Source: Kordiimonadales bacterium IMCC3096 (GTDB lineage: Bacteria > Pseudomonadota > Alphaproteobacteria > Minwuiales > Minwuiaceae). From it: a stretch of 64,000 nucleotides of DNA. The position numbers were made by a program, and so were the translations under genes. This document shows positions 16,646-30,037 of this stretch, piece after piece; within the stretch, counting starts at the first letter, position 1, and each line of letters opens with the position of its first letter. Under the pieces are notes generated by a model. The model worked only from the letters and a program-made list of their open reading frames with translations, made no database searches and was not told the origin of the DNA. The DNA lies in assembly GCA_016865035.1 (NCBI GenBank), contig CP018227.1, forward strand, positions 3,315,501-3,379,500. The letters run 5' to 3'.

Positions 16646-19414
16646 TTGGCAACCGAACAGGGCACTCCTCCGCCGGAATTTCCGTCGGACATTTCCGGAA
16701 TCACGATCGAGGAGGAGATGCGCCGCTCCTACCTCGACTATGCGATGAGCGTCATCGTCTCCCGCGCGCTGCCTGATGCGCGGGACGGTCTGAAGCCGGT
16801 CCACCGGCGCATCCTGCATTCGATGAACGAGAACGGATTCACCTCCGACAAGGCCTACCGCAAGTCCGCCCGCGTGGTCGGTGAGGTCATGGGCCGCTAT
16901 CACCCGCACGGTGACCAGGCGATCTATGACGCGATGGTGCGCATGGCGCAGGATTTTTCCATGCGTCTGCCGCTTCTGGACGGCCAGGGCAACTTCGGCT
17001 CCATGGACAACGACCCGCCTGCGGCCATGCGGTACACGGAAATTCGCCTGGACAAGGCGGGGGAGGCGATGCTGCAGGATATCGACCTGGATACGGTCGA
17101 TTACCAGGACAATTATGACGGCACGACCAAGGAACCCATCGTGCTGCCGTCGCGCATTCCCAATCTGCTGGTCAATGGTGCGGGCGGTATCGCCGTCGGC
17201 ATGGCCACCAATATTCCGCCGCACAATCTGGGTGAGGTCATCGACGCCTGTCTGGCGTTCGCGGAGAATCCGGCGCTGACCGCCGAGGAACTGATGGAGT
17301 TCGTGCAGGCGCCGGACTTTCCCACCGGCGGCCAGATCCTGGGCCGTGCAGGCAGCCGCGCCGCGCTGACCGAGGGGCGGGGTTCCGTCATCATGCGCGG
17401 CCGCAGCACGGTCGAGGAGATCCGCAAGGACCGCGAGGCGATCATCGTCACCGAGATTCCCTATCAGGTGAACAAGGCGGCGATGATCCAGAAGATCTCC
17501 GAAGCGGTGAAGGCCAAGCGGGTCGAGGGAATTTCGGAACTGCGCGACGAGTCGGATCGCGACGGCGTACGGGTCGTCATCGAACTGCGCCGCGATGCGA
17601 TCCCCGAGGTGGTGCTGAACCAGCTCTACCGCTACACCCCGCTGCAGACGAGTTTCCCGGTGAACAGCCTGGCGCTGCTGGCCGGGCGTCCCGAAGTCTT
17701 GAACCTGCGGGACATGATCGAGGCATTTGTCCGGTTCCGCGAAGTGGTCATTGCCCGTCGGACCCGTCATCTGCTGGGCAAGGCACGTGACCGTGCCCAT
17801 GTACTGGTCGGTCTGGCCATCGCGGTGGCGAACATCGACGAGATGATCCGCATCATCCGCGCCGCGCCGGATCCGGCATCCGCACGCGATGAACTGATGG
17901 ACCGCGTCTGGCCGGCGGAGAATGTCCGTGCGCTGATCGAACTGATCGACGATCCGACCCACAAGGTCATCGACGGCAAGTATCGTCTGTCGGAAACCCA
18001 GGCCCGCGCCATTCTGGACCTGCGGCTGAACCGCCTGACCGCGCTGGGCCAGGACGAGATCGGGGACGAACTGAAGGGACTGGGCGAGAAGATCGCCGAC
18101 TATCTGGACATCCTCTCCAGCCGGGCGCGTCTGATGGACATCCTGCGGGAGGAACTGGCGGACGTGCGCGAACGCTTCGCCACGCCGCGCCGGACCGAGA
18201 TCCTGGATATCGAGTTCGAACATGACGAGGAAGACCTGATCCAGCGTGAGGACATGGTCGTGACCGTCAGCCACAAGGGCTACATCAAGCGGGTGCCGCT
18301 TTCGACCTACCGGGTGCAGCGCCGTGGCGGCAAGGGCCGTTCCGGCATGGCCACGCGGGACGAGGATTTCGTCACCAAGGTGCATGTGGTGAACACCCAT
18401 ACGCCGGTGCTGTTCTTCTCCTCCGCCGGCAAGGTCTACAAGATGAAGACCTATCGCATTCCGCTGGCGCAGCCGAACGGTCGGGGGCGGCCGATGCAGA
18501 ACCTGCTGCCGCTGGAGCCGGGGGAGGTGATCCAGACCCTGCTGCCGCTGCCGGAGGATGAGGCGGACTGGGAGAACCATCAGGTCATGTTCGCGACCCG
18601 CAGCGGCAACGTGCGGCGCAACCTGCTGTCCGATTTCTCCAACGTGAAGTCCAACGGCAAGATCGCCATGCGGCTGGACGAGGATGATGCGCTGGTCAAT
18701 GTCCGCCTGTGCGGGGAGGAGGATGACATCCTGCTCGCCGTCGGCAGCGGCAAGTGCATCCGCTTCCGCGCCAGTGATGTGCGGGTCTTCAAGGGGCGCG
18801 ACTCCACCGGTGTCCGGGGCATCCGCCTGGTCGATGATGCCCAGGTCATTTCCATGAGCGTGCTGCGCCATGTCGATGGCACGCCTGCGGAATTCCGCGC
18901 CTATCTGAAGCACCAGAGCATGATCCGCCGGGGTGAACAGGCGGACGTCGATGGTGAGACGCCGGAGCCGCAGGACGAGGACAACGGTGACGAGGGCGAG
19001 GTTTCGCTGAGCTCGGAACGGATTGCCGAACTGGGCGCCGCGGAACAGTTGCTGATCTCCATTACCGAGAACGGGTTCGGCAAGCGTACCTCCGCCTATG
19101 AATATCGCGTCACCGGACGTGGCGGGCAGGGCATCGTCAATATCGTCACCAGTGGACGCAACGGACGCGTCGTTGCATCGGGTCCGGTGGAAGACACCGA
19201 CCACATGATGCTGATGACGAATGGCGGCAAGCTGATCCGTATCCGGGTTGACGAAGTACGCCTGGCTGGGCGCAATACGCAGGGTGTGCGTCTGTTCGAT
19301 GTCGGCAACAAGGAACAGGTCGTCTCCGTCACCCGCCTTTCGGAGGCGGAGAATGAAGGCGAGGAAGACGAGGACGAGAACGACGGCGGAAGTGAGGGGC
19401 AGGTGGAGACCTGA
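16646..19414 (+). CDS. gyrA: DNA gyrase subunit A
   Basis: Breakage-reunion subunit of the type II topoisomerase that introduces negative supercoils. Active-site Tyr130 lies in AMRYTE, and the GyrA box QRRGGKG that distinguishes GyrA from ParC is present in the C-terminal beta-pinwheel. A long acidic insert (about residues 770-790) and an acidic tail follow the family pattern in alphaproteobacteria. The best start is TTG at 16646, with GAGGA eight bases upstream, giving 922 residues beginning [13 protein letters not shown]; the frame is open further upstream but without family sequence. The quinolone-pocket residue equal to E. coli Ser83 is Gln91. Confidence 0.95.
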
Positions 19415-19455
19415 TACCGGATCGCCGTCACCAATCTCTGAAGGGGAGAGCAGAG

Positions 19456-19959
19456 TTGAGTGAACGTGAAATCGTCGGATTGTATCCCGGCACCTTCGAC
19501 CCGATCCATCTGGGTCATTTCGACATCATCCGCCGTGCCGCGCGGCTGGTGGACCGCCTGGTCATCGGCGTCGCCATCAATGCCGGCAAGGGACCGCTGT
19601 TCTCTCTGGAGGAGCGGGTGCAGATGGTCGAGCACGAGGTGAGGGAGTTCGACGGCCAGGTCGAGGTCCGTCCGTTCGAGGGGCTGCTGATGCACTTCGC
19701 CGAGGAACTCGGTGCCCGTGCCATCGTGCGCGGCCTGCGCGCGGTGTCCGACTTCGAGTACGAGATGCAGATGGTCGGCATGAACCTGCGCCTGAATTCG
19801 AACGTGGAGACCATCTTCCTGATGGCGTCCGACAGCCACCAGTTCATTGCCTCCAAGCTGGTGAAGGAGATCGCGATGCTGGATGGCAATGCGAAACCCT
19901 TCGTCTCCGCCCATGTCGCGGGCCTGCTGGAAGCCAAGGTCGCCGCGCGGAAGAAGTGA
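19456..19959 (+). CDS. coaD: Phosphopantetheine adenylyltransferase
   Basis: Penultimate step of coenzyme A synthesis (4'-phosphopantetheine plus ATP to dephospho-CoA). The 167-residue nucleotidyltransferase has the [11 protein letters not shown] signature at the N-terminus and the late IRGLR-type motif ([13 protein letters not shown]). The start is TTG at 19456, after AAGGGGAG. Its stop overlaps the GTG start of queA by 4 bases. It follows gyrA by 41 bases. Confidence 0.96.
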
Positions 19960-20993
19960 GGGTCGATCTCTTCGATTTCGACCTGCCGCCGGAGCGGATC
20001 GCGCTTCGGCCCGCCGAGCCCAGAACCGCCGCGCGCCTGCTCGAGGTGACGGCGGACGGCGTCGCGCACGCCACCATTGCCGACCTGCCGGACCTGCTGC
20101 GCCCGGGTGACCATCTTGTGGTGAACGACACGCGGGTCATTCGCGCGCGCCTGCGGGGCCAGCGTGGCCAGGCACGGGTGGAGATCATGCTGCACATGAA
20201 TCTCGGGCCCGACTGCTGGGCCGCCTTTGCCCGGCCGGCGAAGCGGCTGCGCGTCGGTGACCGGGTGCTCTTTGCCGATGAATTCTCCGCCGAGGTGCTG
20301 GAGAAGCGGGACGCGGGGGAGGTCGTGCTGCGCTTCGACCGCCAGGACGCCGACCTCATGGCTGCCATCGACCATGTCGGTGAGCTGCCGCTGCCGCCCT
20401 ATGTGGCCTCGCGCCGGGCCGTCGATGACCGCGATACGGCGGACTATCAGACCATCATGGCCGACCGCCCCGGTGCCGTCGCTGCCCCCACGGCGGGCCT
20501 GCATTTCACCGACGGGCTGTTCGCGGAGCTGTCGGCGCGGGGCATCGACAGCACGCGCGTGACGCTGCATGTGGGGGCGGGCACCTTTCTGCCGGTGAAG
20601 GCTGATGACACCACCGAGCACCGGATGCATGCGGAAGTGGGGGAGATCACGGCGGAGGCCGCGGCCCGGATCAATGAAGCGCGCGCGGCGGGGGGGCGGA
20701 TCGTGTCGGTCGGTACCACGTCGCTCCGCCTGCTGGAGAGCGCGGCGGACGAGGACGGGACCATCCGGCCCTATCATGCGGCGACGGATATCTTTATCAC
20801 GCCCGGATATGCCTTCCGCGCCGTGGACATGCTGATGACCAATTTCCACCTGCCCCGCTCGACCCTGTTCATGCTCGTCTCCGCCTTTACCGGTCTGGAG
20901 CGGATGCAGGCCGCCTATGCCACCGCGATCGCGGAGGGCTATCGCTTCTATTCCTACGGCGACGCGACCCTGCTGCACCGGGTGTCGGCATGA
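19956..20993 (+). CDS. queA: S-adenosylmethionine:tRNA ribosyltransferase-isomerase
   Basis: Transfers and isomerises the ribose of SAM onto preQ1 in tRNA to make epoxyqueuosine. The 345-residue sequence has the conserved [14 protein letters not shown] start, HLVVNDTRV, the PTAGLHFT block and [12 protein letters not shown] at 19956 overlaps the coaD stop (GTGA), and its own stop overlaps the tgt start (ATGA), so coaD-queA-tgt is translationally coupled. Confidence 0.96.
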
Positions 20994-22126
20994 ACGCGCC
21001 GACCTTCGGTATGGACGTGCAGGCGACCGACGGCATGGCCCGCGCCGGGGTGCTGCAGACCGCCCATGGCCCGATCCAGACCCCGGTCTTCATGCCGGTC
21101 GGCACGGCAGGTACGGTCAAGGCGATGACCCCCGCCGCCGTGAAGCAGACCGGCGCCACGATCATTCTCGGCAATACCTATCACCTGATGCTGCGGCCCG
21201 GGTCGGAGCTGGTGCAGGAAATGGGCGGGCTGCACCGTTTCATGAACTGGCCGGGACCGATCCTGACCGATTCTGGCGGGTTCCAGGTCATGTCGCTGGC
21301 GGGGCTGAGAAAAATCGACGCCGACGGGGTGACATTCCGCAGCCACGTCGATGGTGCGCATGTGCGTCTGACCCCGGAAAGCTCGACCCTGATCCAGGAC
21401 CAGCTCGACGCCACCATCACCATGGCCTTCGACGAATGCACGCCCTGGCCGGCGACGGAGCAGCAGGCGCGGGAATCGATGGAACTGTCGATGCGCTGGG
21501 CGGAACGCTGCCGCACCGCCTTCCGCGCCCGGCCCGGCTATGGCCAGTTCGGCATCGTGCAGGGCGGCACCTTCGAGACCCTGCGGCTGCAGTCCGCCAG
21601 CACCCTGACCGACATCGGCTTCGACGGCTATGCCGTGGGCGGGCTGGCGGTGGGGGAGGGGCAGGAGGAGATGTTCCGCACCCTCGATTTCACCACCCCC
21701 GCCCTGCCGCATGACCGCCCGCGTTACCTGATGGGCGTCGGCAAGCCCGACGATCTGGTCGGCGCGGTGCAGCGCGGCGTGGACATGTTCGATTGCGTCG
21801 CCCCCACCCGGTCGGGGCGCAACGGTCAGGCCTTTACCCGGCGCGGCACCGTGAATCTGCGCAACAGCCGCCACCGCAGCGATCCGCGCCCGCTGGACGA
21901 GGAATGTCCCTGTCCCGCCTGCCAGGACCACAGCCGTGCCTATCTGCACCATCTGATCAAGGCGAAGGAGATCCTCGCCGCCATGCTGCTGACCTGGCAC
22001 AACCTGACCTACTATCAGACCCTGATGCAGCAGATGCGCACCGCGATCCTGGCTGGCCGCATGGACAACATGGCAGCCGCCTTCTCCGAGGAACAGGCCA
22101 TGGGCGACATACCGCCAAGGGACTGA
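20990..22126 (+). CDS. tgt: tRNA-guanine transglycosylase
   Basis: Exchanges guanine 34 for preQ1 in GUN-anticodon tRNAs, one step before QueA. The 378-residue TIM-barrel enzyme shows [11 protein letters not shown] with the catalytic Asp, the second Asp in the MFDCVAPTR region, and the zinc site CPCPAC with a following Cys/His. The start overlaps the queA stop by 4 bases. After tgt come 136 bases with only a short GC-rich inverted repeat (ACCGGAG/CTCCGGT), then tRNA-Lys. Confidence 0.97.
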
Positions 22127-22262
22127 GGACAGGCCCCGACCCGCAGTCGCCGGATGACGCCACGGCAGCGCCCGGACAGTCTTGACCCCGCTCCCCACCC
22201 CGCCTATCGTCCGCCCGCCGCGACACCGGAGCCCCCTCCGGTCCCTCCCGCACACCCCATGG

Positions 22263-22338
22263 GGGCCCTTAGCTCAGCCGGTAGAGCAACTGACTTTTAA
22301 TCAGTAGGTCGTTGGTTCGAACCCAACAGGGCTCACCA
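22263..22338 (+). tRNA. tRNA-Lys (anticodon TTT)
   Basis: A 76-base cloverleaf with acceptor GGGCCCT/AGGGCTC (one G-U pair), D-arm GCTCAGCCGGTAGAGC, anticodon stem ACTGA/TCAGT with loop CTTTTAA (anticodon TTT), T-arm GTTGGTTCGAACCCAAC and encoded CCA. Its 3' half doubles as the left attachment repeat of the AT-rich islet that follows. Confidence 0.96.
22304..22335 (+). repeat. Left attachment repeat (attL-like) in the tRNA-Lys 3' end
   Basis: A 32-base direct repeat starting GTAGGTCG, with the uninterrupted identical core at 22309-22331 covering the T-arm. It matches 24493-24524 with two mismatches. The intact tRNA retains this copy, as expected when the element supplies the 3' end. Confidence 0.85.
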
Positions 22339-22345
22339 TATTTTT

Positions 22346-22366
22346 CAATAATTTATCAAATTATTG
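22346..22366. repeat. AT-rich perfect palindrome just inside the islet
   Basis: Arms CAATAATTT and AAATTATTG (9 bp) with loop ATC, 7 bases after the tRNA-Lys CCA. It could be a weak tRNA terminator or a recombinase/excisionase arm site. A second, imperfect hairpin follows at about 22388-22435 (arms containing CCCTCAAAG...CCTTTT and AAAAGGCTTCTTGAGG). The rest of 22367-22540 holds nothing else I can support. Confidence 0.5.
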
Positions 22367-22544
22367 ATCTTACTCGCGCTCAAGGCCGCCCTCAAAGTTT
22401 CCTTTTTTGTGTAACGCAAAAGGCTTCTTGAGGCTGTCTCGGTTCGGATAGTGCTTTGACCCCCATAGAATTCCAGATGCCGGTGGTCCAGACTTGGGGA
22501 CCGGAGCATACTGAACAACAAATTTCATTCAGGCAGGGAAATGC

Positions 22545-22928
22545 ATGGCCGAAGAAGATTACGACGAAGAACTGCGTTGGCGGCTAGAGGTGCTGCGTAC
22601 GCAGTTTGAGGAAGGCAAGATACACATCGCTGAGCATCTGGCTGCTGATTTTGAGCGAAGCTTGGGAGCAGTGCGGTACCGCGCAGACGGCAAAATCGAT
22701 CTATCAACCGTCGATGGTCGCGTACGTTCAATGGCAATGATGGCAGCTGTTGTCAAGAATCGCCAAGATGCGAAAGACGCAGTTTCTTTGGAAGAGATTG
22801 CTCATTTATATTTTTGTTGTATTGAAGAAAATCTTGGATTATTTTTAAGAGAAGCTCGACAAAAAAGTACGATGCACATTCATTTGCGAAGATGGTATCT
22901 GGACAACCGAGTGTTGTTGTCAACATAA
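22545..22928 (+). CDS. Unknown islet protein A (127 aa)
   Basis: I do not recognise this protein. It starts at ATG 22545 after AGGCAGGGA, has an acidic, helix-rich N-terminus (MAEEDYDEELRWRLEVLRTQ), no signal peptide and no membrane segment. Codon use is AT-rich and unlike the flanking chromosome. Its last 37 bases overlap the start of the 433-residue gene in another frame, so the two are probably one unit with coupled translation. A frameshift that split one longer ancestral gene is the alternative. Function is unknown; the position in a tRNA islet makes an accessory or defence role possible but unproven. Confidence 0.7.
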   Translation: MAEEDYDEELRWRLEVLRTQFEEGKIHIAEHLAADFERSLGAVRYRADGKIDLSTVDGRVRSMAMMAAVVKNRQDAKDAVSLEEIAHLYFCCIEENLGLFLREARQKSTMHIHLRRWYLDNRVLLST

Positions 22929-24193
22929 GCCCACAGATTCCAAGATTGCTGGAGGGCCTAGAGGAATTTTGGTCGTCATTGACCGATTCCTCACATTATC
23001 ATGTTCAGGAATTGACTGGGGTTAAGGCGGTTTTTGGCGGTGATCTGTTCCCCTCCTACCAGCGCAATATTGCAAGCAGCACGGGCTTGTATGTTGATAC
23101 AATTGTTCTGTCTGACCCATTTTGGCATACCCGCCACATTTTTGAACGCGCGACTCCAGAACGGCAAGTTTATTACTTAATAAAGCACGCGATTAACCTG
23201 ATGCAGTATCGTGACCTAGCTCTTGCCGATTTGGATAATCCGATAGTTATCATCACACCATTTAGGTCTTCAGTAGATGAAGAAGAGGTGAAATTCTTAA
23301 AAGGGTTGGCGGAGAAAGATGCCTTGATCCACGCGGAATATCTTTTTGGTCGTAAATTTAATTCAGTTGAAGAATTTTTTGAATTTGCAAATAGTTTGGA
23401 CACGCCGGAAAGCGTCGTGAAAGAGCTTGTTGATAGAGATCGGTTGCTTTTTGATATCGATTGGACAGAGCCATTGGAGCAGCAAATTCGTCGTTCGATT
23501 AAGTATAATGCTGAATTGTTGCCTGTTGGCACTAATTCTGGCGGCTTGGTTGCTTCGCAATGCATGGGAAGAATGATGCAGTCGACTGACATATTGCTCA
23601 AGATTCGCTATCTTATGGGCACGCCTTTGATTGATGCGGCCACATCTTGGAAGTACTTTAGCTGGAAGTTGGAGTATAATTCGGCATTGACCGAAAGCGC
23701 GGAGGCGAATTTACATATGGTGAGAGGGCTGCAACGTGTTGCGGAAACGGATATGCAATGGCTTGGCAACATTCCGCCAGCGGCACTCATAGAGATGCGC
23801 CAGCAGGGCGCTTTTGACGAAATCCGTGAGATGTTGTCACAAGGTGTCAGTGAAATTGCTGCGACCAGACCGGATTCTTTTTTCAGGCCCAGTGATAAGA
23901 TCGTTGATAACGTGCAAGACGCTTTTGAGAGGCATAAAGAAAGAATCAGAGAACTTCGTCAGAAGAATATGAATTTCGCGGGAAACGATCTCGGTTCTTG
24001 GCTCGTTTCGGGGACAATTGAGCTTGCGGCAATTGCAACTGGTACACCGACCTTCGGGGTTGCAGCATTTGCAATCAATCAAGTGGTCGATGCACCCAAG
24101 TTGAGAGAACTACCCGAACGGTTCCGTAGTCTGAGAGATGCTCACGTCGAACTTAAGAAGTCACCTATGGGACTGTTTTTCGCTCACAAGTAG
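22892..24193 (+). CDS. Unknown islet protein B (433 aa)
   Basis: I do not recognise this protein. It is mostly soluble and mixed alpha/beta in character, with one moderately hydrophobic stretch near the C-terminus (about residues 370-400, SWLVSGTIELAAIATG onward) followed by a basic tail. No Walker, nuclease, helicase or methylase motif is apparent. ATG 22892 lies inside the 3' end of gene A and has only a weak ribosome binding site, consistent with translational coupling. The composition is AT-rich with many TTT, ATT and TTG codons, pointing to recent transfer. It ends 26 bases before the IS-like inverted-repeat sequence. Confidence 0.75.
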   Translation: MVSGQPSVVVNISPQIPRLLEGLEEFWSSLTDSSHYHVQELTGVKAVFGGDLFPSYQRNIASSTGLYVDTIVLSDPFWHTRHIFERATPERQVYYLIKHAINLMQYRDLALADLDNPIVIITPFRSSVDEEEVKFLKGLAEKDALIHAEYLFGRKFNSVEEFFEFANSLDTPESVVKELVDRDRLLFDIDWTEPLEQQIRRSIKYNAELLPVGTNSGGLVASQCMGRMMQSTDILLKIRYLMGTPLIDAATSWKYFSWKLEYNSALTESAEANLHMVRGLQRVAETDMQWLGNIPPAALIEMRQQGAFDEIREMLSQGVSEIAATRPDSFFRPSDKIVDNVQDAFERHKERIRELRQKNMNFAGNDLGSWLVSGTIELAAIATGTPTFGVAAFAINQVVDAPKLRELPERFRSLRDAHVELKKSPMGLFFAHK

Positions 24194-24218
24194 GCCAGAT
24201 CGACGAAATGAACGGTCC

Positions 24219-24320
24219 CTGACCTGCTCCCCTTTGAATCCGCGATTCAAGGTTTGCACAGTTCAGGTTTGGTTCTCTGTTGACCGTTGATGATACTCCC
24301 GCGGGGTGAGACCATTGTCA
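24219..24320 (-). pseudogene. Probable IS3-family terminal remnant
   Basis: Read on the plus strand, 24219 starts with TGACCTGCTCCCC, resembling an IS3-family terminal repeat (TG at the tip). Just inside it, on the minus strand, a frame ends with NGLTPREYHQRSTENQT then a stop at 24263. That resembles the extreme C-terminus of an IS3-type OrfB transposase. No further transposase sequence precedes it, so only about 100 bases remain. Both resemblances are from memory and short, so this is tentative. Confidence 0.35.
24234..24250. repeat. 17-bp palindrome
   Basis: Arms TTGAATC and GATTCAA with loop CGC, inside the IS-like remnant between gene B and the small membrane ORF. It may be a subterminal recombinase site or chance. 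Confidence 0.4.
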
Positions 24321-24596
24321 CAAGGGGAGGTGGCGTCTCTCATCCAAACAGCCGTTGAACTGCACTCCAGGGCCTTGGATCTGGCGAAGGATTGGCGTTG
24401 GCAGTTCCCCGTTTCGACCGCTTTCATATCTGCAGTTTCTGGTATTGCAGGAATTTTGTTGGGAGTGCTGCTTACTTGGCTGCTTCTACTCCGTAGTTCG
24501 TTGGTTCGAACCCAACAGGGTTCATCCCTTTCAGTTGGTGCCCGTTCGGCTATCATCGGGGCTGAACCTGGCAGGCATTTGGGGAAAATCAGTTGA
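24306..24596 (+). CDS. Small hypothetical membrane protein running through the right attachment repeat (96 aa)
   Basis: A GTG-initiated frame of 96 residues. The middle (about residues 40-65, FISAVSGIAGILLGVLLTWLL) is a convincing single transmembrane helix, preceded by an amphipathic region. After residue 65 the frame reads into the right attachment repeat and then chromosomal sequence, so the C-terminus looks fused by the integration event. The stop overlaps the TTG start of the GST gene. It could be a truncated islet gene or an accidental frame; no family is recognised. Confidence 0.4.
   Translation: MRPLSQGEVASLIQTAVELHSRALDLAKDWRWQFPVSTAFISAVSGIAGILLGVLLTWLLLLRSSLVRTQQGSSLSVGARSAIIGAEPGRHLGKIS
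24493..24524 (+). repeat. Right attachment repeat (attR-like)
   Basis: A direct copy of the tRNA-Lys 3' end, 23 identical bases at 24498-24520 within a 32-base stretch with two mismatches. The remaining tRNA body is absent. GC-rich chromosomal DNA resumes at once, with the GST gene starting 68 bases later. Confidence 0.85.
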
Positions 24597-25228
24597 TCAC
24601 CATTCATCATCTTGGCGTATCGCAGTCCGACCGCGTGGTCTGGCTGATGGAGGAACTCGGTCTTCCCTATGACCTGAAGTGGCATCACCGGAAGGCGAAC
24701 CGGCTGATGCCGGACGCGTACTTCAACCTGCATCCGGCGGCGACCGCGCCGGTGATCGAGGATGACGGTCGCGTGCTGACGGAATCGGCGGTGGTGCTGG
24801 AATATGTCTGCCGCACGCATGCCGGGGGCCGGTTCACCGTGAACCCCGACCAGCCGAACTATTTCGACTACCTCTACTGGATGCAGTTCAACAACAATGC
24901 CCTGGGCCTGTATTTCGCGCAGCTTGCCATGGGAGCCAACCCGACGGGCGAATCGACGCCGATCGTGAAGGAACTGCTGCACCGCCGCTGGTCAGGCTAT
25001 TACGACTATCTGGAGCAGACGCTGGCGAAGCACGATTATCTGGCAGGTGACGAATTCACCTGCGCGGACATGATGGTCGTCTACAACTTCGGCAACATCC
25101 TTGCCTCCGGTGGCCGGACCCTGGCGGATCTGCCGAACACCAATGCCTATTTCCAGCGGATCAGTGCCCGGCCCGCGTACCAGAAGGCCATGCAGATCGC
25201 GGGGCCGGAGGCGACGCCCCCGGCGTAG
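24593..25228 (+). CDS. Glutathione S-transferase family protein
   Basis: A 211-residue cytosolic GST. The N-terminal thioredoxin-like domain starts MITIHHLGVSQSDRVVWLMEELG, with the active-site Ser/Thr region and the cis-Pro segment TAPVIEDDG. ESAVVLEY follows (glutathione gamma-glutamyl contact) and then the all-helical C-terminal domain with the FTCADMMVV N-capping box. The start is TTG at 24593; a later in-frame start would remove the first beta strand. It is the first normal chromosomal gene after the tRNA-Lys islet. The substrate is unknown. Confidence 0.88.
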   Translation: MITIHHLGVSQSDRVVWLMEELGLPYDLKWHHRKANRLMPDAYFNLHPAATAPVIEDDGRVLTESAVVLEYVCRTHAGGRFTVNPDQPNYFDYLYWMQFNNNALGLYFAQLAMGANPTGESTPIVKELLHRRWSGYYDYLEQTLAKHDYLAGDEFTCADMMVVYNFGNILASGGRTLADLPNTNAYFQRISARPAYQKAMQIAGPEATPPA

Positions 25229-25361
25229 GTGCTTCTGAGGCCGGATGCGGAGGGCGGTGTGGCGATTGTCCTCACTGTGCCCTGACCTGATCAGTGGCAA
25301 GATGCAGGCACCTTTCATGACCTGAGCTGATCGAGCCGGGTTCCATAATGGAGGTGCAGGC

Positions 25362-26369
25362 ATGAAGGCGATGGTGCTGGATGCGCCCGAACAGGCGTTG
25401 CGGCTGGCGGAGATGCCGACACCGGTTCCCGGTCCTGACGATGTGCTGCTGGATGTGGAAGCCTGCGCCGTCTGCCGGACCGACCTGCATATCGTCGATG
25501 GCGATCTGACCGAGGCAAAGCTGCCGCTGGTGCCGGGCCACGAGATCGTCGGTCGTGTCGCGGCAATGGGCGCGGCTGTCCAGGGGCTGACGGTTGGCCA
25601 GCGGGTCGGGGTGCCCTGGCTTGGCGGCACCTGCGGGCATTGCCGCTATTGCCTGAAGGGTGCGGAGAACCTCTGCGATACGCCCGTCTTCACCGGCTAC
25701 ACGCGCAACGGCGGGTTCGCCGAACAATGCCTTGCCGATGCCCGCTTCGTGGTGAAACTGCCTGATGATGCCGACCCCGCCCATCTCGCGCCTCTTCTGT
25801 GTGCCGGGCTGATCGGGCACCGGTCGCTGGGCATGACCGGGGAGGCCCGGCGGCTCGGGCTCTACGGGTTCGGTGCCGCGGCCCATATTGTCGCCCAGGT
25901 GGCGCGCTGGCAGGGACGCGAGGTCTTCGCCTTCACGCGGCCCGGCGATTCCGATGCCCAGGGTCTGGCCCGGCGGCTCGGCGCCGTCTGGGCGGGCGGA
26001 TCGGACGAGATACCGGCGGAGCCACTGGACGCCGCGATCATCTTCGCCCCTGTCGGCGCGCTTGTGCCTGTCGCCCTGCGGGCCGTGGCGAAAGGGGGAA
26101 CCGTCGTCTGTGGTGGCATCCACATGTCCGACATTCCCGGCTTTCCCTATCAGGATCTCTGGGGCGAGCGCGTGATCCGCTCCGTGGCCAATCTGACCCG
26201 TGCCGACGCGACGGACTTCTTCGGGACCGTGGCGGAGGCCGGCATCCGCACCGAGGTGACGCGATATCCGCTGGAGGACGCGAACACGGCTCTGTCGGCA
26301 CTCAGGGAAGGACAGATTTCCGGGGCAGCCGTTCTGATGTGCGGGCAGGCGCGCCATGAACACACCTGA
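25362..26369 (+). CDS. Zinc-dependent alcohol dehydrogenase
   Basis: A 335-residue medium-chain dehydrogenase. Catalytic zinc ligands are Cys in CAVCRTD and the His-Glu of GHEIVG; structural zinc is bound by the four-Cys lobe CGHCRYCLKGAENLC. The nucleotide-binding segment around LGLYGFGAAAHIV follows. It probably oxidises alcohols or reduces aldehydes with NAD(H). Its 3' end overlaps the downstream kinase-like gene by 14 bases, so the pair is an operon. Confidence 0.9.
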   Translation: MKAMVLDAPEQALRLAEMPTPVPGPDDVLLDVEACAVCRTDLHIVDGDLTEAKLPLVPGHEIVGRVAAMGAAVQGLTVGQRVGVPWLGGTCGHCRYCLKGAENLCDTPVFTGYTRNGGFAEQCLADARFVVKLPDDADPAHLAPLLCAGLIGHRSLGMTGEARRLGLYGFGAAAHIVAQVARWQGREVFAFTRPGDSDAQGLARRLGAVWAGGSDEIPAEPLDAAIIFAPVGALVPVALRAVAKGGTVVCGGIHMSDIPGFPYQDLWGERVIRSVANLTRADATDFFGTVAEAGIRTEVTRYPLEDANTALSALREGQISGAAVLMCGQARHEHT

Positions 26370-27864
26370 AACGGACCAGGCTGCGACCGTCGCCTTCATG
26401 ATGCGGGCGGATACGCACGGCGGTAGACCCGTCGAGCATATCGAGACGCATATCTCGCACATCTTCCTGGCCGGCGATTATGCCTGGAAGATGAAGAAGG
26501 CTGTCAGTCTCGACTTCGTGGACTTCAGCACCCTGGCGCAGCGCAAGGCGGCCTGCGAGGCCGAACTGGTGGTGAATGCCCGGACAGCACGGGCGATGTA
26601 TCTCGATGTCGTGGCCGTCAATGAGCGGGACGGGCAACTCTGGCTCGGTCCGCCGACTGCGCCGGTCGAGTATCTTGTCCGGATGCACCGCTTCGAACAG
26701 GCGGACCTGCTGGACCGGATGGCGGCGGAACACAGGCTGGATCTTCAGACCGTCCGGGAATTCGCCGACGCCGTGGCGGGCCTGCATCTGACCGCCGAGG
26801 TCGTGCGCCCGCAATCAGGTCGGGACGCCTTTGCGATGACGCTCGATGATCTGATCACCAATCTCGACCATGCCGTGCCGGACGGGCTCCGTGCCGCTTT
26901 CGGGCGCTGGCGGGCGAAGGTACTTCCGGTTGCCGGGGCGCTGGCAACCAGGCTGGCGGCACGGGCCCGTCGGGGTGCCGTGCGCCACGGTCACGGTGAC
27001 CTGCACCTCAACAATGCCTGTCGCTTCCGGGGCGAGGTGGTGCTGTTCGACGCCATCGAGTTCGAGCCGCGGTTCAGTCACGTCGATGTGCTCTATGACG
27101 CGGCCTTCGCGCTGATGGACCTGCGCCATCGTGGGGAGGATGAACCGGCGATTGTCTTCCTCAGCCGATATCTTGTGGCGACGCGGGACTATGCGGACAT
27201 GCCCGCGTTGCGGCTGTTCCTTTCGGTGCGCGCGGCTGTGCGGGCCCTGGTCGGCGTGCTTTCGCCTGCCGGGCAGACCGCTGCGGCAGAATATCTGGCA
27301 CTCGCCGAGGATCTGCTGGCGGCGCCTCGGCCCCCGCAGGTCATCGCAATCGGGGGCCGTTCCGGCACCGGCAAGTCGACACTTGCCCAGGCGCTGGCAC
27401 CCCGGATCGCTCACGCACCGGATGTGGTCATCCTGCGCACGGACGAGATCCGCAAGCGCATGCTCGTCTGCCGCCCCGACGAGACGCTGGGGGCGGATGC
27501 CTATCGCCCGGATATCACGGCTGCAGTCTATCGCAGGCTGGCGGACGACGCCGGGCGGGCGCTGGGCGCAGGCGCGAGTGTCATTGTCGACGCGACGATG
27601 CTGAAGCCTGAACAGCGTGCCATCGCACAATCCATTGCACGCGACGGGGGGGCGGCGTTCCACGGCTTCTGGCTTGTCGGGGCGGAGGAGACCCTGGCCG
27701 AGCGGATCGCCGGGCGGGGCACGGATGCATCCGATGCCGACCAGCAGGTCATGCGGCGACAGCCGAAGATCGGTGAAGTCGAGGGCTGGCAGACGCTACG
27801 GTCCGACCGTGACAGTTCCGCCACCCTGGAGGCGGCGCTGGCAGTGCTCGGGCTCCCCGCCTGA
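26356..27864 (+). CDS. Fusion of aminoglycoside-phosphotransferase-like domain and P-loop AAA kinase
   Basis: A 502-residue two-domain protein. Residues 1-320 resemble the APH fold, with the HGHGDLHLNN catalytic loop and the later IEFEPRF metal-site region. Residues 330-502 form a zeta-toxin/gluconate-kinase-like P-loop domain with Walker A GGRSGTGKST and a VDATML segment. Such fusions are annotated as AAA family ATPases next to alcohol dehydrogenases in several Proteobacteria. Neither substrate is known. It starts inside the ADH gene and is coupled to it. Confidence 0.85.
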   Translation: MNTPETDQAATVAFMMRADTHGGRPVEHIETHISHIFLAGDYAWKMKKAVSLDFVDFSTLAQRKAACEAELVVNARTARAMYLDVVAVNERDGQLWLGPPTAPVEYLVRMHRFEQADLLDRMAAEHRLDLQTVREFADAVAGLHLTAEVVRPQSGRDAFAMTLDDLITNLDHAVPDGLRAAFGRWRAKVLPVAGALATRLAARARRGAVRHGHGDLHLNNACRFRGEVVLFDAIEFEPRFSHVDVLYDAAFALMDLRHRGEDEPAIVFLSRYLVATRDYADMPALRLFLSVRAAVRALVGVLSPAGQTAAAEYLALAEDLLAAPRPPQVIAIGGRSGTGKSTLAQALAPRIAHAPDVVILRTDEIRKRMLVCRPDETLGADAYRPDITAAVYRRLADDAGRALGAGASVIVDATMLKPEQRAIAQSIARDGGAAFHGFWLVGAEETLAERIAGRGTDASDADQQVMRRQPKIGEVEGWQTLRSDRDSSATLEAALAVLGLPA

Positions 27865-27972
27865 TGCCGGGTCCCGGATTCCGGCATTCGTCAGGGGGGC
27901 GCATTTTTCGATGGGAACACATGCGTTCGTGACTTAAGTGTCCGGGATCGAATTCCTGCGGATTGTTGAACC

Positions 27973-28650
27973 ATGACTTCCGAGACTTCAGCCAATACCG
28001 AAGAGACCATCCGCCTCACGCAGCGGCCTGACTGGGTCTATCTGCTGCGTGAGTACTATGAGCTCTACCGGTTCCTGTCCGCGGGCGGCAGTTCGAAGAT
28101 CCGGACGCATCAGCGCACGGTGCGGGAGGCGATCAACAAGGTGATACAGGCGAATGCGCCGATGACCTTTCCGCTGCCGGAGCGCAAGCCGGTCGTCAGT
28201 CACATGCGGCGGGCCCTGGACGAGGGGCTGGCGGAACGCCATGCGTCCTGCATCCGGGCGATCATGGCCGTGCAGGATGAACTGAGCTGGCAGTATGGCT
28301 ATGGCCGCATGCCGAGGGGGCTGTCGCAGAAGTACGCCTATGCGGAGATCACGGGACCGTCCGGTCCGGTCATCACGGAGCAGGTCATTCTCGGCCTGGT
28401 GCTGTTCGCGCCCGGCTGTACCTATCCGGCGCATGCCCATGACGGCATCACCGAAAGCTATGTCTGTCTTTCAGGCTCGGTCAGCGAGAATCACCAGGGC
28501 GTCTATTCGCCGGGGTCGCTGATATACAACCCGCCGGACCATCGTCACCGGATCACCGTCGCGGATCATGAGCCGGCCTTGCTGGCCTACGCCTGGCATG
28601 GGCCGACCGAAAAGCTGGCCGGGCAGGTGATGTCTTTCCGGCGGTCCTGA
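27973..28650 (+). CDS. dddL: Dimethylsulfoniopropionate lyase family cupin (DddL-like)
   Basis: DMSP lyases cleave DMSP to dimethyl sulfide and acrylate. The 225-residue protein has a helical N-terminal region and a C-terminal cupin barrel. The metal-binding residues expected for the family are His154, His156, Glu161, Tyr163 (in YPAHAHDGITESY) and His192 (after YNPPDH). The YNPPDHRHRI and LLAYAWHG segments also fit DddL. Size is close to DddL (about 230) rather than DddQ or DddW. Monocistronic; no dddT-type transporter or acrylate genes adjoin. The symbol is a best guess within the DMSP-lyase family. Confidence 0.75.
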   Translation: MTSETSANTEETIRLTQRPDWVYLLREYYELYRFLSAGGSSKIRTHQRTVREAINKVIQANAPMTFPLPERKPVVSHMRRALDEGLAERHASCIRAIMAVQDELSWQYGYGRMPRGLSQKYAYAEITGPSGPVITEQVILGLVLFAPGCTYPAHAHDGITESYVCLSGSVSENHQGVYSPGSLIYNPPDHRHRITVADHEPALLAYAWHGPTEKLAGQVMSFRRS

Positions 28651-28824
28651 AAGCCATTCCGGCCCGTCCGTCGGGTCGGAAACACGTCACGGAGGACGCC
28701 ATGTTCCGGGATTCCTCGATCATTTGATCTCGTCGAATGTCCGCCACCTGGCCGCCCATACCGAAATCTCGGTGATGGTGGTGCGGCGGGCACATCACCG
28801 GACACTGCGCGGGCGCGTTCCGGA

Positions 28825-29958
28825 TCAGCCCTGATCGAGCATATCCACGTGCGCGGTCAGGTTCCGGTGAAAGTGACCGATCGCCTGCTCGAAGTGGCCG
28901 AACGTCAGATGGCTGTTGGCGCCGCTTTCCATGTGGGTCTGGATCGTGTGGGCTGCGTCGCGATCCTCGATCAGGCCGGTGTCCTGCACGAAGTTGGCGT
29001 CGCGGCGGGCGACCTCGACATCGATCGGCTTGCCGTCTTCCGGTTTCAGGGTGACCTGATAGATCACCCATTGGGTCTCGGTCGGGCTGACCGGCTCCAG
29101 AATCACCAGCATCGCGTGATCCGTCAGGTAGGAAATGTGCGTGTTCGGAAACAGCTGGTAGACGTCGGTCACCATGCCCTTCAGGCGTCGTTCCTCCCGC
29201 GGAATCTGTCGCAGCTTCTCGATCCGGCGGAAGGGAAAGACGATCCGGGAATTGCGCCCGTAGGTCTCGACGACATTCAGGTTGTCGAAGCCGTAGGGGT
29301 AGAACGACTTATTGTGCAGGGCCTTGATGTGATAGCCCTCCATCGAGGTCTCGCCGATCAGTTTCCAGTTCGATTCATCGGTGAAGCTGATGGAGTTGAA
29401 GACTTCCTGCCCGGGTTCCAGCAGATCTGGCATCTCGCCCAGTGCCCCGTCCGACAGCGGCGTGTCCTGGGTGACGAAGATCAGTCCCCCGCGTTCCTCC
29501 ACCGCATGCACCGGCACCAGCCCGTTGTCCGCCTTGTCCAGACCGGGAAAACCGTCTTCGCCGGGCACATGTTTCAGGCTGCCGTCCAGGCCATAGGTCC
29601 AGGCGTGATAGGGGCAGGCGAAGGACCGCTGGCAGCCCTCCCCCCGCGCCACGGCCATGCCGCGATGGCGGCAGGCATTGCGGAAGGCGCGGGCCACGCC
29701 GTCGTCGCCACGGACCACCAGCAGTGGCGTGCGTGCGGCCGTGCGCGCGATGTATGACCCCGGTTCGCTGAGGGCGGCGGAGGGGCAGAAGGGGACGGGT
29801 ATGCGGCGCAGCACCTCGATCTCGGCGTCGAACCTTTCCCGGGACCGGTAGTTCTCCACCGGCTCCCGCCACACCTGGGTGCCAGCATCCGTCGTCTTGC
29901 CGTCGATGTGACTGAAGATCCGGTCAATCAGATCAGCGTCGTTCAGCAAATGTCCCAT
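28825..29958 (-). CDS. Aromatic-ring-hydroxylating-type Rieske oxygenase, alpha subunit
   Basis: A 377-residue mononuclear-iron oxygenase. Rieske ligands are CRHRG and CPYHAW about 20 residues apart (near residues 90-115). The catalytic domain holds the iron motif MEGYHIKALH. No beta subunit, ferredoxin or reductase gene adjoins. This is typical of single-component-type oxygenases acting on quaternary amines or small aromatics, including the GbcA/carnitine-oxygenase-like branch. The substrate is open. The 174 bases between it and the convergent DMSP lyase gene hold no supported feature. Confidence 0.88.
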   Translation of the reverse strand: MGHLLNDADLIDRIFSHIDGKTTDAGTQVWREPVENYRSRERFDAEIEVLRRIPVPFCPSAALSEPGSYIARTAARTPLLVVRGDDGVARAFRNACRHRGMAVARGEGCQRSFACPYHAWTYGLDGSLKHVPGEDGFPGLDKADNGLVPVHAVEERGGLIFVTQDTPLSDGALGEMPDLLEPGQEVFNSISFTDESNWKLIGETSMEGYHIKALHNKSFYPYGFDNLNVVETYGRNSRIVFPFRRIEKLRQIPREERRLKGMVTDVYQLFPNTHISYLTDHAMLVILEPVSPTETQWVIYQVTLKPEDGKPIDVEVARRDANFVQDTGLIEDRDAAHTIQTHMESGANSHLTFGHFEQAIGHFHRNLTAHVDMLDQG

Positions 29959-30037
29959 CAGTTCCTCCCCGAACCTCCGTCATGAACAGACAGATAGCAT
30001 TGCACCCCGCACCCGCCAAGGAATGGTGTGATGCGTC

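Follow-up and report, generated by a model that had tools for sequence, protein, structure and literature searches.

The gpA–gpQ hotspot of P2-like prophages carries diverse anti-phage systems together with other genes, as described in excerpts of Rousset et al. 2022 (PMC9122126). The cargo named there includes old/tin, DUF4238, DprA-PRTase and others, one DUF4238 protein protects against T7, and the same site also holds genes outside defence, putative partition systems among them. Two further systems bear on the locus described here. Aditi, the DitA–DitB system, is listed among systems of unknown mechanism in the excerpted part of a 2026 review (PMC12926258). In AVAST type 1, Avs1c accompanies Avs1b: a true pair in the Pseudomonadota genome G701 (locus L104, 8135–13995) consists of an Avs1b ORF (E 0), at least 1,863 residues long and reaching the edge of the sequence examined, and immediately behind it an Avs1c of 84 residues (PADLOC E 1.4e-40). 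Avs1c is not named in the excerpted part of PMC12799240. A literature search with most subscription journals outside its range found no paper that links DitB with anti-phage activity, cyclodipeptide synthases with anti-phage activity or Avs1c with AVAST, and no mention of six protein accessions of the relatives described below.

The locus lies in a 64,000-nucleotide stretch of contig CP018227.1 from Kordiimonadales bacterium IMCC3096 (the whole stretch analysed, hereafter the window). It is a 2.1-kb islet of 47% GC, flanked by a tRNA-Lys gene and a partial copy of the 3′ half of this tRNA. An initial annotation of the window had read its cargo as a two-gene module, a small partner followed by a larger effector. 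The features of the islet are as follows.

22263–22338, + strand: tRNA-Lys (TTT), the insertion site of the islet (ARAGORN)
22294–22335, + strand: left 42-nt direct repeat, attL-like, within the 3′ half of the tRNA (repeat comparison)
22545–22928, + strand: ORF 1 (127 residues), the N-terminal ~107 residues of the gene plus ~20 out-of-frame residues
22581–22736, + strand: Avs1c-like N-terminal module, ORF 1 residues 13–64 (NCBIfam NF041811, PADLOC, profile alignment)
22861–22866, + strand: A6 run with a net −1 frame change relative to intact homologues
22892–24193, + strand: ORF 2 (433 residues), the other four fifths of the same gene
23108–23716, + strand: DitB-like central region, ORF 2 residues 73–275 (PADLOC PDLC03827)
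24023–24079, + strand: moderately hydrophobic C-terminal segment, ORF 2 residues 378–396 (Kyte-Doolittle)
24483–24524, + strand: right 42-nt repeat, attR-like, 88% identical to the left (also seen as G000:C1:3339983-3340024)

The coordinates, lengths, strand and 37-base overlap of the two ORFs given by the initial annotation are exact, and its remark on AT-rich composition agrees with 1-kb windows of 45–50% GC within the islet against 61–70% in the flanks; each part of the gene is about 46% GC. The pair was also rightly called the only substantial cargo, as the other ORFs of the islet are antisense (the largest 142 residues) or, in one case, a 96-residue ORF at the right edge. No integrase is found among the islet ORFs. 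The site has the marks of a mobile integration site, with the tRNA-Lys gene, the 42-nt att-like repeat and different contents in two other genomes of the genus. In one of these (G002) the same tRNA is followed by 1.15 kb with a metallo-beta-lactamase-fold gene, and in the other (G001) by an alpha/beta hydrolase gene; in a further genome (G004) a transposase-like ORF, recognised by eye, lies downstream at a contig end. A match to ORF 2 is absent from all six other genomes of the genus, out of 96 genomes searched.

Several smaller observations concern the same site. In G006, near 2508200 (L035), an ORF after the homologous tRNA-Lys resembles a terminase small subunit by eye and has no Pfam match; this suggests a phage attachment site. 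An IS-like scar of ~97 bp lies 3′ of the gene (24220–24315), with a 79% copy at another place in the genome of the window (G000:C1:3713187-3713283) and an 82% match in G006 (L018), of the same genus. The hydrophobic 96-residue ORF (24306–24596) spans the right att-like repeat and runs into the start of a GST gene; its FtsX match is sub-threshold only, and the ORF is probably spurious.

The two ORFs are one gene divided by a shift of reading frame. The best relative, the 549-residue product of a single ORF in Pseudooctadecabacter jejudonensis (L001, 85% identity), has ORF 1 as its N-terminus and ORF 2 as the rest, so that the two parts in the window align with it end to end in two frames. The initial annotation took the ORFs for two overlapping genes, but the frame of ORF 2 runs upstream of its ATG into ORF 1 in the register of the homologues, and the ATG itself aligns to an internal residue. 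The final ~20 residues of ORF 1 have no counterpart in the homologues. Stepping back one base at the A6 run (22861–22866) restores the homologue register. A single ORF of 534–577 residues with no internal stop is present in 26 of the 28 other full-length loci, which gives no support to a small partner with a separate larger effector. Among the outcomes that the annotation had set against its own reading were homologues found only as a single fused gene of a known housekeeping family; the single gene was found, the known housekeeping family was not. The locus is an example of how a frameshift can give one gene the appearance of a two-gene module.

The count covers 29 full-length loci, the window included, of which the window, L008 and L073 are split. 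The 26 intact loci are L001, L005, L006, L007, L040, L062, L064–L072, L074, L076–L080, L085, L086 and L094–L096, with near-duplicates among them (L066/L067; L070/L072; L040 with L076–L080). Outside the count stand L009, which is shorter and has no N-terminus, two contig-end fragments (L091, L092), same-contig duplicates (L081–L084, L087–L090, L093, L097), 12 more records from the E. coli search, L004 (a fragment that matches the DitB profile and is interrupted by two stops) and the E. coli record CP019279.1. The last has 1,821 bases like L008 and a match cut at 77–80%, and is probably split as well.

In each of the other two split loci, the difference from intact sisters is a single base within a T run. 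In L073, a T8 run has become T7, and the gene is split near the position of the split in the window; its sisters L070, L072 and L040 show no split. In L008 the split is at another place, and its 1,821 bases compare with 1,820 in the intact copy from the same E. coli strain; here the split is judged from the annotation and from a T6 that is not present in L040. It is very improbable that the pair is a genuine two-gene module of small partner and effector, perhaps one that arose by gene fission and is translationally coupled. Such coupling would be possible with the 37-base overlap, and L073 is split at a nearby position, but the L073 split is itself a loss of one T relative to intact sisters, the last ~20 residues of ORF 1 lack a homologous counterpart, and the gene is a single ORF in all but two of the other loci.

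The dN/dS ratio against L001 is 0.10 over the first 107 codons and 0.115 over ORF 2. Since both values are about 0.1, neither part has decayed, and the break is either of recent origin, or tolerated, or an error of assembly. Homopolymer miscounts are common in sequencing. An assembly or base-calling error at A6, with an intact gene in the living strain, is therefore a possibility to be taken into account, although we lean against it; it is compatible with a defence role. The undecayed state of both parts speaks for it, as do the splits of L008 and L073 at T runs next to intact close sisters. Against it, frameshifts were found in none of 101 genes from relatives, over 204 kb of this genome, 24 G/C runs of at least six included, so that the general quality of the sequence is good; no A/T run of at least six occurs within these 101 genes, and an error of the A6 type is not directly covered by them. 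This count was made with a codon-position GC filter (in the reverse comparison 2 of 87, both near gene starts). An unfiltered count had given 23/382 and 15/306 apparent shifts, which reflected shadow ORFs in this GC-rich genome.

Programmed −1 frameshifting or slippage, which would yield both the 127-residue product and a full-length product from one gene, appears decidedly unlikely. A one-base slip at A6 does restore the register, and no damage is seen in the remainder of the gene. The A6 run is, however, not found at this place in the relatives displayed, 26 of the 28 other full-length loci need no shift, and the RNA downstream of A6 is not unusually structured (z −0.46; 61 of 200 shuffled sequences reach an equal or better fold, pseudoknots excluded). 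T8 runs do occur at the same linker position, after the N-terminal module, in the E. coli-type L040 and in the Photobacterium locus L006. Phase variation through such a T8 was considered and set aside: when the codons of L040 were shuffled synonymously 2,000 times, 1,527 of the resulting sequences held an A or T run of at least eight, and this frequency gives no sign of selection for such runs. A full-length product in this strain would require slippage of the frame or a base count different from the one recorded; otherwise the strain would make only fragments, and the gene would probably be impaired or without activity.

The relatives combine three parts in a single chain, an Avs1c-like N-terminal module, a conserved DitB-related centre and a moderately hydrophobic C-terminus. 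The annotation had found no motif that it could name in either ORF, and the first two of these parts supply such similarities. ORF 1 matches the NCBIfam Avs1c model NF041811 with E 8.1e-6 (25.9 bits, which does not reach the curated cut-off of 70) and the PADLOC Avs1c profile with E 1.5e-5. With each of the two libraries, 10 of 18 alignment rows match Avs1c, the best at 4.1e-10; ORF 2, which is one of the rows, cannot match because this part is absent from it. Aligned with the true Avs1c of G701, the family profile covers 66 columns (hhalign pairwise E 1.1e-4, probability 57%). Another NF041811 match, in G649 (L101), has a LacI-type regulator and, by eye, a lyase-like ORF in its surroundings, and was judged to be due to chance.

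In its centre, ORF 2 has a significant match to part of the DitB profile of PADLOC, PDLC03827 (E 4.4e-10, profile positions 92–289, 198 of 361). Twelve of the 18 alignment rows match DitB, the best at 3e-13, while L006 and L009 show no match at E 0.1. No Pfam domain was found in the ORFs of the window or in L001. The search for DitA, a profile of 486 positions, gave no match in the genome, with a profile for which no control gave a signal, and no islet ORF other than the two parts of the gene is longer than 142 residues. No ORF of Avs1b size occurs within 18000–30000. Because neither partner gene, DitA or Avs1b, lies beside the gene, the locus is neither Aditi nor AVAST type 1. A weak DitB-profile match with two in-frame stops is also seen in the Alphaproteobacterial genome G010 (L004, 1501–1788).

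The hydrophobic end that the annotation saw in the second protein is present but weak. Its Kyte-Doolittle maximum over 19 residues is 1.34, below the usual transmembrane level of 1.6; the same region has at least one 19-residue segment above 1.6 in 10 of 19 relatives.

Predicted structures of the family are mediocre. The AlphaFold model of the L001 protein has a mean pLDDT of 63.9 (13 alignment rows), with residues 1–155 helical and fairly confident and pLDDT below 50 from about residue 426 onward, and the central region of the window protein modelled alone is no better (mean pLDDT 62.5, 15 rows). In VIA-align, the central region of the L001 model finds cyclodipeptide synthases or tyrosyl- and tryptophanyl-tRNA synthetases in 9 of 50 rows, the best with Z 5.3 over 188 residues and an rmsd of 5.1; the domain-only model finds the same kinds of protein in 10 of 50 rows with Z 2.5–3.3, and the tool warns that Z below 8 may mean only a common arrangement. 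Rows that rank higher have Z up to 6.9 and involve residues 423–518, where pLDDT is below 50, and assorted helical proteins; the top row of the domain-only model is a retromer model (Z 5.5). Because other folds rank higher and Z stays below 8, the likeness to cyclodipeptide synthases or class Ic synthetases is a lead only. Foldseek gave no match at E 0.001 in PDB or BFVD, no solved structure matches ORF 1 or ORF 2 by sequence at E 1, and the solved structures found with the family profile are all calponin-homology chains, none better than E 0.19. Twelve of 48 invariant residues fall within the 44 of 291 positions near predicted strand ends (p 0.035); the strand ends were picked after the data had been seen, so this value is not used as proof. 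Invariant residues occur, among other places, in the motifs GDLFP, YxDT, KH and TSW.

The family is rare. It is found in 17 of 5,426 E. coli genomes at 80% cover (19 records, of which six chromosomal loci were examined), in 6 of 72,556 plasmid records, in a single one of 50,697 phage records, which is the E. coli record of L008, and in 2 of 398 genomes of the phylum, one of which is the genome of the window itself. A scan of genome contigs for close relatives gave one locus, single-protein viral scans with L009, L007 and L006 gave no relatives, and a DNA search of the E. coli genomes with the window sequence gave nothing.

Where members occur, the surroundings are often those of mobile elements. 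In 18 of 30 family loci (a list that includes L008, L009, L073, L075 and near-duplicates), the next gene downstream, on the opposite strand, is a P2-like portal gene, and 14 of these 18 loci also have a gpA-type replication gene. All six E. coli chromosomal loci examined adjoin the portal gene; their other neighbours vary, and by this token the gene appears to stand alone. L062 follows a tyrosine integrase. Defence-like genes are found beside several members: SIR2 and HerA in L078 (PADLOC E 6e-211 and 6e-267), an AAA/Toprim-type ATPase in L094, a PDC-S31 candidate in L080, and in L001 a type IIG restriction-methylation gene, type IV-like endonuclease and HNH genes, with a relaxase gene nearby. 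A scanned neighbour in L071 gave a weak LmuB match in PADLOC; scanned neighbours in L065, L077 and L006 had no PADLOC match, and in L005 and L007 neither the annotation nor inspection by eye shows a defence-like neighbour.

A DUF4238 gene lies immediately downstream of L096 (6750–7784; E 2.7e-29) and another ~3 kb upstream of L006 (137–2455), with an IS256-type gene between. L006 and L096 are distant members of the family, and a recurrent partnership with DUF4238 is possible. L009, on a Sutcliffiella plasmid (Bacillota; 5842–8098), is a distant member of 452 residues with no N-terminal module and is followed by a SEC-C protein and XerS; it could be a different two-gene variant.

We consider it likely that the gene encodes a single accessory protein of mobile elements, ~550 residues long, whose role would be anti-phage, that is, the exclusion of one element by another. 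The mobile anti-phage cargo proposed by the initial annotation is in this respect supported in kind, by context and distant similarity, and its two-gene architecture is not. The proposal draws on two things, the distant likeness to Avs1c and DitB and the mobile, defence-rich context. In such a protein, the N-terminal module would sense or dock a partner related to infection, the central region, in which many polar residues are invariant, could be the enzymatic effector, and the C-terminus may serve oligomerisation or membrane contact; infection would then turn on an activity that damages the host or blocks the phage. Points against a defence role are the non-defence genes of P2 hotspots, the neighbours of L005 and L007, the rarity of the family, the distance of the similarities and the mediocre models, and no phage assay of any family member was found in the literature searched.

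A gene of mobile elements with a role other than defence, in lysogenic conversion, in the maintenance of a prophage or plasmid or in anti-defence, is unlikely, if by no means far-fetched. The family does occur on plasmids and prophages, the excerpts of PMC9122126 describe putative partition systems and further non-defence genes at the P2 hotspot, and some members have no defence neighbours. The similarity to Avs1c and DitB and the several defence neighbours argue against such a role. A more specific proposal within the anti-phage interpretation is improbable as it stands: an undescribed single-protein system in which an Avs1c module is joined to a DitB-type enzyme with a fold like that of cyclodipeptide synthases or class Ic synthetases, acting on aminoacyl-tRNA or a nucleotide.

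Returning to the anti-phage role that we favour, the gene is probably a one-protein phage-defence gene, little studied so far, and may be broken in this bacterium. If the family is defensive, it adds one gene to the arsenals of P2 prophages and plasmids, it suggests that Avs1c is a portable module and not a part of AVAST only, and the link between Avs1c and DitB gives two little-understood proteins a shared single-chain context. If the likeness to cyclodipeptide synthases and synthetases is true, it would offer testable biochemistry for Aditi.

The comparison with described systems comes down to the following. With the cargo of the P2 hotspot, the E. coli-type relatives share the same position, adjoining gpQ; the protein family is a different one, and the window copy is at tRNA-Lys and not in a P2 prophage. 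With cyclodipeptide synthases and class Ic aminoacyl-tRNA synthetases, the likeness is one of fold only, in low-confidence models and with no sequence-profile match. With Aditi, the likeness is a match of the central region of ORF 2 to part of the DitB profile, but the family has ~115 additional N-terminal residues of another kind and is a single gene in 26 of the 28 other loci. With AVAST type 1, the N-terminal ~70 residues of the family align with true Avs1c; there, Avs1c is a separate protein of 84 residues that follows Avs1b, whereas here it is part of a longer and different protein.
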